Assembly: GCA_008638005.1 (NCBI GenBank)
Contig: VTPE01000003.1
Span: 1 to 36,179 of the forward strand
DNA from: Pelagibacteraceae bacterium
Lineage (GTDB): Bacteria > Pseudomonadota > Alphaproteobacteria > Pelagibacterales > Pelagibacteraceae
Reading direction: 5' to 3'
Length of the DNA stretch: 36,179 nt
The notes under the pieces were generated by a model. That model worked only from the letters and a program-made list of their open reading frames with translations, was not told the DNA's origin and searched no databases. Below, in pieces: positions 21,103 through 26,092 of the stretch (position 1 is its first letter; every line of letters begins with the position of its first letter). Position numbers and translations under genes: made by a program.

Positions 21103-21579
21103 ATGGATAAACAACCAATAACAGTATCAGGTCTTAAAAAAATAAAACTAGAGTTGGATGAAAGAAAAAATATCATCAGACCTAAAATTGTTCAAGCTAT
21201 AGCAGAGGCAAGATCGCATGGTGATTTAAAAGAAAATGCCGAATATCACGCTGCTAAAGAAGAGCAAGGTTTGAATGAAAAAAGAGTTCAAGAGTTGGAA
21301 ACCACTATAGCAACTGCGAATGTTATTGATATTACAAAAATTAAAAAAGATGACAAAGTTATTTTTGGAGCAACAATAATAGTAAAAGATTTAGAAACTG
21401 AAAAAGAAAATAAATATAAAATAGTTGGAAAAGATGAAGCTGATGTAAAAAGCGGTCTTATTTTTTTTCAATCCCCAATGGGAAAAGGATTTATAGGTAA
21501 ATCAAAAGGTGAATTCGCTGAAATTAAAACGCCATCTGGAGAAAAAAATTTTGAAATTATAGATGTTCAATATATTTAA
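21103..21579 (+). CDS. greA: Transcription elongation factor GreA
   Basis: Binds the secondary channel of RNA polymerase and stimulates cleavage of backtracked RNA. The 158 residues show the standard layout. An N-terminal coiled coil (about 1-75) carries the acidic tip SHGDLKENAEYHAAKEEQ, and a C-terminal FKBP-like domain (about 80-158) contains FQSPMGKGFIGK. It follows trmL after 37 bases. Its TAA directly abuts the stop codon of the CCA enzyme gene on the other strand, with zero bases between them. Confidence 0.97.
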   Translation: MDKQPITVSGLKKIKLELDERKNIIRPKIVQAIAEARSHGDLKENAEYHAAKEEQGLNEKRVQELETTIATANVIDITKIKKDDKVIFGATIIVKDLETEKENKYKIVGKDEADVKSGLIFFQSPMGKGFIGKSKGEFAEIKTPSGEKNFEIIDVQYI

Positions 21580-22806
21580 CTACTTGAATAGCTTTGTAGC
21601 ATCATCAATGTCTTTTTCACGAATTTCATAACTATTTGCTAGCCATCTTTTTTTTAAAAAATTTAGAGCGTTTCCTAATTTCTCTCCTTCTTTAAAACCT
21701 TTTTGAAAAAGAATATTGGTATCAAAATTAAAAATAGGTGGTTCAGTCTCCTTAATAATTTTTAAATTATTTTCATATAATTCCTGCTCATATTTTTCAT
21801 TAACCAGATACTGAAAGTGTACAAAATCTACTACAGAAGAGACGCCATATTCTAAAACTTTTTTTTTCAAAGTATCTAGTTTTTCAATATTATCAGTAGT
21901 TTTGAAAGTAAATTGAGATTGCAGGTTATTAAGTCTTTTTTTAACTTCATTTGATAAACTAAAATCTTTTACAAATCTCTCAAAATTTTTAGTTTGATCA
22001 ATTAAAAGTAATGATAATAAAACTACCCAATCGACCTCTTTTTTCAAAATTTTTTTTTTTCTATCAAATTCAAGTCTGGTCAAATATTTTATACCTTTAA
22101 ATACTGAAAGATATAAATCTTTAGAAAAATCATTTTGAAATAATTTGTAAGCTTTACCACTTGTAAGAGTTTTTTTTAGTTCATCTAAAAGCCTGGCTTT
22201 TGAAAGCTGTTCAATATTTGAAAAATTTTTTTGTATTGCGCTAATAATATACTCTTCATGATGAGTTTTTGAAAATTGAATAAAAAATCTGAAGTATCTT
22301 AAAGCTCTTAAATAATCTTCTTTAATTCTTTTAACAGGATCACCTATAAAACGAATAATGCCATTTTTTAAATCATCTACGCCTTTGAATGGATCATAAA
22401 TTCTACCTTTTAAATCGCAATAGATTGAATTAATTGTAAAATCACGTCTTAGAGCATCTTGTCTCCAATCATTGGTGAATACTACATTTGCATGCCTTCC
22501 ATCATGATCTAAATCTTTTCGAAGTGTATTAACCTCATAAAAATTGTTATTTAAAAAAACTTTAATTGAACCATAATTTTCATAATGATCATCAAATGAA
22601 ATATTATTTGCATTTAGCTTTTTTTTAATTTCCAGTGGAGTTAACGATGTTGCAAAATCAATATCTGCAAGTTCTTTTCCAAATATTAAATCTCTAACAC
22701 ATCCCCCTACAAATAAACAAACAACTTCATTTTCTTCTGCATTCAGTAGATTAAAAATCCGCTTTGCGTCCTCAAGATCATTGAATTTTTCTAGATTACT
22801 TATCAT
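21580..22806 (-). CDS. cca: CCA-adding tRNA nucleotidyltransferase / poly(A) polymerase family protein
   Basis: Class II nucleotidyltransferase. The N-terminal catalytic domain has LFVGGCVRDL (about 31-40), the two metal-binding Asp in DIDFAT (Asp48, Asp50), GRHANVVFTNDW, RRDFTINSIY and EDYLRALRYFRFF. The rest is helical. The form is that of alphaproteobacterial CCA-adding enzymes; poly(A) polymerase cannot be excluded by motif alone. I place the start at the ATG at 22806 (408 residues). The longer reading from a GTG at 22824 would begin inside the tRNA gene and is rejected. Only 6 bases separate the encoded CCA end of tRNA-Gln from this start. Confidence 0.88.
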   Translation of the reverse strand: MISNLEKFNDLEDAKRIFNLLNAEENEVVCLFVGGCVRDLIFGKELADIDFATSLTPLEIKKKLNANNISFDDHYENYGSIKVFLNNNFYEVNTLRKDLDHDGRHANVVFTNDWRQDALRRDFTINSIYCDLKGRIYDPFKGVDDLKNGIIRFIGDPVKRIKEDYLRALRYFRFFIQFSKTHHEEYIISAIQKNFSNIEQLSKARLLDELKKTLTSGKAYKLFQNDFSKDLYLSVFKGIKYLTRLEFDRKKKILKKEVDWVVLLSLLLIDQTKNFERFVKDFSLSNEVKKRLNNLQSQFTFKTTDNIEKLDTLKKKVLEYGVSSVVDFVHFQYLVNEKYEQELYENNLKIIKETEPPIFNFDTNILFQKGFKEGEKLGNALNFLKKRWLANSYEIREKDIDDATKLFK

Positions 22807-22812
22807 CTGGTA

Positions 22813-22886
22813 TGGCTGGGGCACTAGGATTCGAACCTAGGATGGCGGTACCAAAAACCGCTGCCTTACCGCTTGGCTATGCCCCA
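22813..22886 (-). tRNA. tRNA-Gln (anticodon TTG)
   Basis: A complete cloverleaf can be drawn on the reverse strand. The acceptor stem is TGGGGCA/TGCCCCA (7 pairs) with discriminator G and an encoded CCA at 22815-22813. The D arm reads AGCCAAGCGGTAAGGC. The anticodon stem is GCGGT/ACCGC with loop TTTTGGT, giving anticodon TTG. The T arm is CTAGG-TTCGAAT-CCTAG. It lies 11 bases after ispE and 6 bases before cca on the same strand, so it is very probably cut out of a polycistronic mRNA by RNase P and a 3' nuclease. Confidence 0.97.
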
Positions 22887-22897
22887 ATATTTTTCAA

Positions 22898-23752
22898 TTA
22901 TAATGTTTTGGTCAGTGTAGTCCAAAACTTTAATTTGTGCTTTTTAATGATTTTTTTTACATTTAAAAGTGATTTCTTATTTTTTGCAATTACAAAAAAG
23001 GCAGACCCGCTTCCTGTCATTGAATAATAATAGGTATTATCGATACTTTCTATTAATTTAATCAAACTATTTAGGCTGGGAAATAATCTTGCTGCAGGTT
23101 TTATTAAGTCATTTCCATAAAAGCTCAAAGTTTTAAAAAGTTTATCTTTATCTCTAAAGCTAAATACTTTTTTTTTATTAGTTATTGGTTTTTTAGAGAA
23201 TTCTTTAAACACTCTCTTAGTTGAAAGATTTTTATTTGGAAAAATGATAAGCATCTGCAAGTTAAGTTTTTTGGTATACTCCTTAAATTTCTCACCAAAT
23301 GAACTGACTAATTTTAAATTTTTATTAACAAATAAAGGACAATCCTTGCCAACCTGACTTAAAATTTTAATTGTCTCTTTTTTAGATATTTTTAATTTGA
23401 ACTTTTTCTTTAGAAAAAAAAACAACGCAGTAGCATTTGATGATGCACCACCCATACCAGATCCGCTTGGAATATTTTTTTTTATATAAATACTAAAATT
23501 TTTTTCTTTTATCTGTTTAAAATTTTTTTTCATTAATTCTAAAAGCAGTAAAAGAGTGTTACTATTTTTTTTCACTTTTAGGTTATTGCTAAATTTACAT
23601 ATATCTTTACCAAGATTATTTTCTGTTATTGAAATTTTATCGTGTAAATTAATGAGGGTTATCAAGCTATACAGCCGGTGATAGTTATTTTTTTTTCCTA
23701 AAATCTTTAAAAATAAATTTATTTTTGCATATGATCTGATTGTTTTAGTCAT
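22898..23752 (-). CDS. ispE: 4-diphosphocytidyl-2-C-methyl-D-erythritol kinase
   Basis: GHMP-family kinase of the non-mevalonate isoprenoid pathway. The 284 residues have SYAKINLFLKI at the N-terminus, the ATP loop PSGSGMGGASSNA, and the C-terminal MTGSGSAFF motif. All three are diagnostic. It overlaps the upstream TPR gene by 8 bases and is followed after 11 bases by tRNA-Gln. The protein is unusually Lys-rich with many Phe, as is common in AT-rich reduced genomes. Confidence 0.95.
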   Translation of the reverse strand: MTKTIRSYAKINLFLKILGKKNNYHRLYSLITLINLHDKISITENNLGKDICKFSNNLKVKKNSNTLLLLLELMKKNFKQIKEKNFSIYIKKNIPSGSGMGGASSNATALFFFLKKKFKLKISKKETIKILSQVGKDCPLFVNKNLKLVSSFGEKFKEYTKKLNLQMLIIFPNKNLSTKRVFKEFSKKPITNKKKVFSFRDKDKLFKTLSFYGNDLIKPAARLFPSLNSLIKLIESIDNTYYYSMTGSGSAFFVIAKNKKSLLNVKKIIKKHKLKFWTTLTKTL

Positions 23753-25427
23753 TCAAACCATTTAAAATTTTTCTCTCAATTGTATCTTTTCTTTTCTCGT
23801 CAATATTTTCTAAATTCAAGGCATTTTGCCATACATATCTTGCCTGCAAATATTTTTTTTGCTTCCACAAGACGTCACCATAATGGTCATAAACCTCGCT
23901 CTCAGAAGAAGTTTTTTCATAAGCAAGTCTTAGCAGGTCTTCTGCTTTATCATAATCACCTTGAAGATAATAAGCCCAACCTAATGAATCAATAATATAT
24001 CCCAATTCCCAGCGACTTAACTTGACGGCATCTTCAAGCATGGCTTTGGCTTCACTTATATTTTGTTCTCTTTCTAACCAACTGTAAGCTAAATAATTAA
24101 TGACCGAATATTGCCTTGGAGATAAGCTTAATGATTTTTTAAAACTTTTTTCTGCACTCTTCCATAAATTTAATCTCTCATAACAAATTCCTTTAAAATA
24201 AAAAAAGGACCAATCAAGTTTATCTGAACTTTCAATTTCCACTTTTTCATAAAATTCTAATGCTTTTTTAAATTGTTTTTTAATTCTGTAGTAATTAGCT
24301 AAATCTAAATACTTATCGCTTTTAAAAATATCATCGGAAATAATTTTTTTCTCTAAATTTTTAATATTATCTAGATCATTCTTATTTGCTGCAATTCGGT
24401 AATTGACCAGCCATTCATATTCTGATCCTATATTTTTAATTCTATATAAAATTCTATTATCAAAATTATAAGCGTTGCTGTAAAAAATCATATTCTCAAA
24501 GCGTAAAAGATTATTTGATAAAAACTTATTATTAAAATCTAAGGATATTGATAATAAAATTTCAGCAAATTCTAGATCATCTCTTTGCTGATATAAGTTT
24601 GAAAATAAGTAAAAAATCTCAGAAATATTATCCTCAATACTACTAAAGTTATAAAAATTAATAATCCTAAAATCTTCTTTTTCAAAATTTAAATAACTTT
24701 GTTTAAGTAAAATATTTTTTTTGTCTTTTGTTAAAAGATTTTTTAAAATTTGCTTAGCTTTCTTTTTATTATTATTTCTAATTTCGTTCCAAGACGATAA
24801 AATTTGATATCTAATATAATTGTCTGAGCTTAAAATTTTTTTATTATATATATTGTAAAGATTTGCATTATTGATGTAATTTGAAGCTAGAAACTGATTA
24901 ATCAAAGAAATGGTTGGGTATCTTGAATTAATATTTTTTATTAATTGAATTTTTTGAAACTCATCGGCTTTTTCGAGCAAAATCCAAAATTCTAATGATG
25001 ATTTTAATTCTGTAAACAAAAGATCATTAATATTTAAACTTCTCAACAGATCTAGCGCTACATCATAATCTTTGGCTTTAATAAAATGTATAACTTTAAT
25101 AAAATCAAATAATAAAATATTTTCATATTTATCTTCAGTTTTTAAAACTTGCTTTACTGCCTGATCAAATTGTCCATTAACTATCAATGAGTTAATAAAT
25201 TTTATATCATAATCAGAATGCTTTCCCTCTAAACGATCTATTTTATTAAAATTTAATGCAGCTAAATTATGCTGTTTTTGTTGATGCAAAATCGAAGCAT
25301 ATAAATAGTTTTTAATATAATCTTTTGATTGAATTTTTTCTTGATCATTGAATAAGAATGCATAACCATTACTGATTGATAATATGACTAAAAATATTCC
25401 AATTGATAAAATTTTTTTTAAAGACAT
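23745..25427 (-). CDS. Exported TPR-repeat protein
   Basis: A 560-residue protein with an N-terminal signal sequence (hydrophobic residues about 6-22, cut probably after GYA). The remainder is helical repeat. The clearest TPR units are C-terminal, for example WSFFYFKGICYERLNLWKSA, ISEAKAMLEDAVKLS, YYLQGDYDKAEDLLRLAYEK and YDHYGDVLWKQKKYLQARYV. Such a protein next to ispE is common in alphaproteobacteria, and a role in the cell envelope is a guess. The start is fixed: the next upstream in-frame codon of note is a stop at 25445-25443. Only 8 bases separate it from the divergent udg start. It leads the operon TPR-ispE-tRNA-cca. Confidence 0.85.
   Translation of the reverse strand: MSLKKILSIGIFLVILSISNGYAFLFNDQEKIQSKDYIKNYLYASILHQQKQHNLAALNFNKIDRLEGKHSDYDIKFINSLIVNGQFDQAVKQVLKTEDKYENILLFDFIKVIHFIKAKDYDVALDLLRSLNINDLLFTELKSSLEFWILLEKADEFQKIQLIKNINSRYPTISLINQFLASNYINNANLYNIYNKKILSSDNYIRYQILSSWNEIRNNNKKKAKQILKNLLTKDKKNILLKQSYLNFEKEDFRIINFYNFSSIEDNISEIFYLFSNLYQQRDDLEFAEILLSISLDFNNKFLSNNLLRFENMIFYSNAYNFDNRILYRIKNIGSEYEWLVNYRIAANKNDLDNIKNLEKKIISDDIFKSDKYLDLANYYRIKKQFKKALEFYEKVEIESSDKLDWSFFYFKGICYERLNLWKSAEKSFKKSLSLSPRQYSVINYLAYSWLEREQNISEAKAMLEDAVKLSRWELGYIIDSLGWAYYLQGDYDKAEDLLRLAYEKTSSESEVYDHYGDVLWKQKKYLQARYVWQNALNLENIDEKRKDTIERKILNGLND
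25384..25412 (+). promoter_or_regulatory. Candidate promoter of udg, inside the TPR gene
   Basis: ATGACT at 25384-25389 and TAAAAT at 25407-25412 are separated by 17 bases. The second box is preceded by TG plus one base, an extended -10 feature. It would give a leader of about 17 bases for udg. It lies in the signal-peptide codons of the opposing TPR gene. This is a pattern match only. Confidence 0.28.
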
Positions 25428-25435
25428 AGAGTTAC

Positions 25436-26092
25436 ATGCATATTAATAAAAATATCTTAGATTTTTATCAATCATCAGGCTTATATGATAGAGTCATTTT
25501 AAGAAAAAGTAATATAGAAAATAAACTTACCCTTATAAATCTTAAAACAAAAATAGCTTCACTAGCGAGTTTTTATAATAAGAATAAAAATCAAGCTGTT
25601 TTCTCGGATGGCAATGAAAATTCTAAGATTATGATAATTGGAGATATGCCGGGTGTCTCAGATGAAATTAAGAAAAAACCATTTTCAGGTGATGCAGGTG
25701 AATTGCTCGATAAAATGTTATTAGCAATTAATTTAGATCGAAACAAAGTATACCTTACCAACATTATTAATTATAGATTAGAAGATAATAAGAAACCAAG
25801 TGAAAAAGACATTCAAAAATTTTTACCATTAATCATAGATCATATTAGTATTATTAATCCAAAAGTCGTTTTGTTAATGGGTGCGGTAACATCACAAGCG
25901 TTGATCGGTAAAGAGAATTCAATATCAAAAATAAGAGGAAAGTGGTTTAATTTAAAAATAAAAAATAAATTTATTAATTTTATGCCGACGTTACATCCTG
26001 TGTTTCTTATGAGACAAAGTGAACAAAAAAAATTAGCGTGGGAAGATCTAAAAAGATTTTATAATAAATTAGTTTCTGAAAAATTGTGTTAG
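25436..26092 (+). CDS. Family 4-like uracil-DNA glycosylase without iron-sulphur cysteines
   Basis: Removes uracil from DNA at the start of base-excision repair. The 218 residues follow the family 4 layout: motif 1 GDMPG (69-73), KPFSGDAGELLDKML, VYLTNIINYR, INPKVVLLMGA, GKWF and motif 2 TLHPVFLMR (His187). The family normally binds a 4Fe-4S cluster with four Cys. Here the only Cys in the whole protein is the last residue (218), and the usual CRPPGNR-type loop reads YRLEDNKKP. The start is fixed by an in-frame TAG at 25427 just upstream. The gene overlaps rnhB by 7 bases. Activity is likely but not proven, given the lost cluster. Confidence 0.85.
   Translation: MHINKNILDFYQSSGLYDRVILRKSNIENKLTLINLKTKIASLASFYNKNKNQAVFSDGNENSKIMIIGDMPGVSDEIKKKPFSGDAGELLDKMLLAINLDRNKVYLTNIINYRLEDNKKPSEKDIQKFLPLIIDHISIINPKVVLLMGAVTSQALIGKENSISKIRGKWFNLKIKNKFINFMPTLHPVFLMRQSEQKKLAWEDLKRFYNKLVSEKLC
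25443..25471 (-). promoter_or_regulatory. Candidate promoter of the TPR-ispE-tRNA-Gln-cca operon, inside udg
   Basis: On the reverse strand a TTGATA (25471-25466) and a TATTAA (25448-25443) are separated by 17 bases, matching sigma-70 spacing. The implied start of transcription is about ten bases before the TPR start codon. It lies within the first dozen codons of udg. This is a pattern match only. Confidence 0.3.

Follow-up and report, generated by a model that had tools for sequence, protein, structure and literature searches.

Both the co-transcription of tRNAs with mRNAs in bacteria and the punctuation of mitochondrial transcripts by tRNAs are already known: mixed tRNA-mRNA operons include secG-leuU, tyrT-tpr and thrU...tufB in E. 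coli, and in mitochondria it is the excised tRNAs that set the ends of the mRNAs, whose leaders are absent or just a few nucleotides long. The secG-leuU pair is also cited as a tRNA-mRNA operon in a paper on the opening of polycistronic E. coli tRNA precursors by RNase E (PMC3985628). In actinobacteria, leaderless mRNAs have been described, on which the start codon is also the transcription start (PMC4633059, PMC3848588). For SAR11, a literature search on start-site maps, tRNA-gene junctions and leaderless mRNAs returned no direct data, which is weak evidence as few subscription journals were covered.

The locus compared here with these systems lies in a stretch of 36,179 nucleotides from a Pelagibacteraceae bacterium (contig VTPE01000003.1), hereafter the window. 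On its minus strand, a TPR gene, ispE, an 11-nt spacer, tRNA-Gln(UUG), a 6-nt gap and cca follow one another, with greA convergent on the far side:

23745..25427, minus strand: gene of a TPR-repeat protein (open reading frame with profile support), head of the presumed operon, with an 8-nt overlap with ispE
22898..23752, minus strand: ispE, 4-diphosphocytidyl-2-C-methyl-D-erythritol kinase (TIGR00154 of NCBIfam above cut-off)
22919..22924, minus strand: weak candidate -35-like element TGGACT in ispE codons, 16 nt before TATAAT
22897..22902, minus strand: candidate -10 box TATAAT, which overlaps the stop codon of ispE and lies about as far from the tRNA as TGNTATA does in other genera
22887..22897, minus strand: spacer of 11 nt from the ispE stop codon to the tRNA 5' end (sequence)
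22813..22886, minus strand: tRNA-Gln, anticodon UUG, with encoded CCA and 3' end GCCA (ARAGORN and Rfam)
22807..22812, minus strand: gap of 6 nt, 5'-TACCAG-3', from the CCA of the tRNA to the start codon of cca (sequence)
21580..22806, minus strand: cca, class II tRNA nucleotidyltransferase of 408 aa (PolyA_pol and PolyA_pol_RNAbd above cut-off)

The gene order, both spacings and the encoded CCA, which an earlier note had read directly from the letters, all agree with the coordinates and with the tRNA calls. ARAGORN and Rfam each called a single tRNA, the same tRNA-Gln(UUG), even if the Rfam model ends short of the CCA, and this gene was the sole match within its own assembly, which is 84% complete. 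Pfam and NCBIfam profiles also support greA and the upstream TPR protein. At the far end of the locus, the stop codons of cca and greA are adjacent and convergent (21579-21580), leaving no room for a terminator, so that the two transcripts probably overlap. At the other end, the TPR gene (minus strand) and a family 4 uracil-DNA glycosylase gene (plus strand) have start codons just 8 nt apart (25427-25436), so their divergent promoters must overlap coding sequence.

The cca product displays the GGxxR, DxD, RRD and EDxxR motifs of class II enzymes in its nucleotidyltransferase head domain, and its best NCBIfam match is CCA tRNA nucleotidyltransferase, at a score below the equivalog cut-off. Since the DID, RRD and EDYLR catalytic motifs are kept across ten relatives, Cca very likely functions as an enzyme that adds or repairs CCA ends. 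Its start is likely the ATG at 22806-22804: the mechanically called open reading frame reaches up to a GTG at 22824, inside the tRNA, a start that we rejected because in-frame starts within the tRNA are rare (8/86 distinct loci).

The earlier note had asked for this gene order to be looked for in relatives, and we found the junction in nearly all genera of the Pelagibacteraceae (SAR11; labelled f1, with f2 for the sister family and g1 for the genus of the window), where the tRNA-Gln ends 3-7 nt ahead of the cca ATG; gaps of 6, 12 or 17 nt occur in genus g12. A pattern consisting of the tRNA-Gln end followed by an ATG at a distance of 1-14 nt was found in 293 of the 397 genomes of the order that were searched, every match falling in f1 and none in f2. 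Consistently, no tRNA was seen ahead of cca in f2, nor in 26 other cca loci with upstream sequence (mostly alphaproteobacterial). Being found across the Pelagibacteraceae, the junction is not a product of chance, and its absence from f2 and from these other loci makes an origin at the root of f1 probable. In Fonsibacter (g6; L156, L025, L027), a gene whose product we take, by the look of its sequence, to be a GNAT-like acetyltransferase lies between tRNA-Gln and cca. In two of these loci (L027, L156), an in-frame ATG takes the last A of the tRNA CCA.

The length of the gap appears particularly regular in g4, the largest genus. Among the matches listed, it was exactly 3 nt in 133/135 cases, and a T occupied position -1 in 133/133 of these 3-nt gaps while positions -3 and -2 varied, keeping in mind that related g4 sequences are not independent. 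Such free variation beside an invariant base and an invariant length suggests a constraint on both the length and the T at -1. A T precedes about 44% of the ATG-started open reading frames in G010 (27/62), so base composition alone does not explain the invariant T. In three g4 genomes, the gap between tRNA-Leu and tig measures 9, 10 and 16 nt, which argues that short gaps behind tRNAs are not simply frozen.

Between the tRNA and cca, the two genes are co-directional with neither a promoter nor a terminator in the sequence: the tRNA end and the gap hold no suitably spaced -10-like hexamer, the 6-nt gap itself is also devoid of a Shine-Dalgarno sequence, and the sole terminator-like site of the 20.5-25.5 kb region sits away from the junction. 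Since no promoter fits there, cca must, judging from the sequence, be transcribed through tRNA-Gln. Ahead of the tRNA, most f1 genera have an ispE-tRNA spacer of 28-37 nt carrying a TGNTATA element, nearly always 11-17 nt before the tRNA and thus at a near-fixed distance. It was detected in 69/86 distinct loci, versus a mean of 4.4 and a maximum of 11 in the shuffle control. This element resembles an extended -10 promoter that would serve tRNA-Gln and cca; as a general tRNA promoter it was rejected, being present in 0/32 upstream regions in G005 and 4/31 in G010. The spacers of g1, g8 and g12 measure 8-13 nt (11-13 nt in g1) and lack TGNTATA. In the window, the candidates TATAAT and TGGACT are of a type whose matches are common in such AT-rich sequence. 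Thus, of the earlier claim that there was little room for a separate promoter or terminator, the part concerning the space between tRNA and cca stands, while the space ahead of the tRNA suffices in most genera; the lack of a separate promoter for the tRNA may be true of the window's genus, and it is not true of the family. The related proposal that tRNA and cca are co-transcribed, tying cca expression to the tRNA transcript, agrees both with the missing promoter between them and with the conserved order.

Similar junctions were then found at many other tRNA genes. In two complete genomes (G005 and G010), a co-directional protein gene starts 1-12 nt behind 10/32 and 7/31 tRNAs, respectively, so that tRNAs abut genes at many sites (17/63), as expected for mitochondrial-type punctuation. 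With open reading frames called mechanically and distances compiled by hand, 17/35 co-directional versus 0/23 divergent genes started within 12 nt of a tRNA (Fisher p=2.4e-5), none of the 23 divergent genes starting less than 23 nt away. All 63 tRNAs called in these two genomes encode their CCA. The genes found behind tRNAs include hisS, cca, tig and those for an AMP-binding enzyme, an aldehyde dehydrogenase, an EamA transporter, a NAD kinase, NDUS4 and GIY-YIG nucleases. The tRNA-Leu(UAG)-tig junction occurs throughout the order, almost all of its loci having gaps of 4-18 nt. tRNA-His lies directly ahead of the gene of its own synthetase, hisS (L083:9383-9465 in G005; L230-L249), the two being 3-7 nt apart in each f1 genome read (among g1-g10, plus g12), and no such junction was seen in f2. 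The hisS junctions were checked directly, a search with the short tRNA-His pattern GCTGTACCA...ATG having been dropped for too many chance matches. An enrichment of tRNA-related genes behind tRNAs was also considered and, by inspection, appeared unconvincing, cca and hisS being the sole such genes in a set of about 13 distinct ones. Altogether, from the genome sequences compared, the tRNA-Gln-cca junction is one case of a genome-wide SAR11 habit. Two other features were seen near tRNAs: GIY-YIG nuclease genes of 83-84 aa, in two genomes belonging to two genera, lie behind tRNA-Arg UCU with a gap of 5 (L093 in G005) and behind tRNA-Glu with a gap of 2 (L114 in G010), and a truncated tRNA, perhaps a remnant, that has a CAT anticodon but no normal 3' acceptor half is located in G010 (L117:5300-5560; G010:C1:838387-838444).

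As to how such transcripts might be processed, RNase E scored above cut-off in 5/5 genomes tested and RNase Z in 0/5, its matches being weak and below cut-off, as were RNase D-like matches. RNase PH was over cut-off in three g1 genomes (G000, G005, G006) and was not found in the complete g4 genomes G010 and G023; g4 is also the genus with the 3-nt tRNA-Gln-cca gap. The reading that we favor, and hold to be fairly probable, is that tRNA-Gln and cca form a tRNA-mRNA dicistron that is cut to yield a near-leaderless cca mRNA. Transcripts would begin either upstream, reading through from the TPR gene and ispE, or just before the tRNA, and would run into cca. RNase P would cut at the tRNA 5' end, and RNase E or another endonuclease within a few bases after the CCA. 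The cca message would then be left with a leader of a few nucleotides at most (no more than 6 here) and be translated as a near-leaderless mRNA. Such punctuation by tRNAs might be favored by extreme genome compaction, acting at many SAR11 tRNA genes.

Compaction may also have left these neighbors side by side with no functional consequence, cca being translated from the uncut co-transcript, and a very short gap alone indeed needs no functional reason in genomes so compact: tiny gaps are the rule around tRNAs in G005 and G010, convergent genes included. The start codon might, moreover, also be reached on the uncut precursor; predicted pairing around the cca AUG hardly changes whether the folded tRNA is present or absent, so that folding neither points to an occluded AUG nor separates cut from uncut RNA. 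Against this passive explanation speak the g4 gap held at 3 nt with T at -1 beside freely varying bases, when the tig gaps of the same genus vary, and the position of a tRNA folded 3-7 nt ahead of the AUG, inside the usual ribosome footprint; the passive explanation is, in our opinion, rather unlikely. Least probable of all, with hardly any weight in our judgment, is that the tRNA has a promoter of its own and its transcript terminates before cca, the latter being expressed separately: the TGNTATA element seen in 69/86 distinct loci would provide the first promoter, but the junction shows no terminator-like site and the 3-7 nt behind a constrained tRNA sequence offer no place for the second.

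The earlier note had gone further in suggesting a feedback loop, in which processing of the tRNA 3' end would set the level of Cca and Cca would act back on that processing. The conservation of the tRNA-Gln-cca pairing in the family speaks for such a loop, as does the existence of a second, likewise conserved, pair of a tRNA with a tRNA-related enzyme, tRNA-His and hisS. An autoregulatory loop would, however, need the enzyme for the release of its own mRNA, and we found that the CCA is encoded here and in all the tRNAs called in two relatives, so that Cca would serve repair rather than primary maturation. Since excision is the work of endonucleases and not of Cca, the enzyme does not act on the step that would free its message. 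Comparable junctions also precede unrelated genes (those of trigger factor, aldehyde dehydrogenase, EamA transporter, NAD kinase and GIY-YIG nucleases), and in Fonsibacter the intervening gene parts tRNA-Gln from cca. The loop is thus unsupported and appears highly improbable; an indirect feedback link through tRNA decay or repair is conceivable, though nothing in our analysis supports it.

The tRNA-Gln-cca dicistron that we favor resembles the E. coli mixed operons in that a tRNA and a protein gene share one transcript, from which RNase P and RNase E free the tRNA in E. coli and would do so here; it differs from them in that the gene follows only 3-7 nt behind the tRNA, with no room for a Shine-Dalgarno sequence, and that about a quarter of the tRNA genes are concerned. 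As in mitochondrial punctuation, the sequence suggests that tRNA excision would define mRNA ends with very short leaders; unlike mitochondria, these are free-living bacteria that encode the CCA and have an ordinary RNase E, in which only some tRNAs would be concerned by the presumed cleavage. The message would begin at or close to its start codon, as do the leaderless mRNAs of actinobacteria, except that the cca 5' end would come from tRNA processing. What seems new is a tight junction that is family-wide and found at many tRNAs of a free-living bacterium. A broader proposal, which we put forward tentatively and consider possible rather than probable, is that mitochondria-like punctuation regularly makes near-leaderless mRNAs in SAR11, that the cca leader length (3 nt in g4) and the U at -1 are selected, and that expression of the essential tRNA-related genes cca and hisS scales with how much tRNA is made and processed. 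If excision does make the 5' ends of the cca, hisS and tig mRNAs, tRNA processing would set the supply of both tRNAs and proteins, as in mitochondria, and a free-living bacterium would routinely translate messages whose leaders are about 3-7 nt long.
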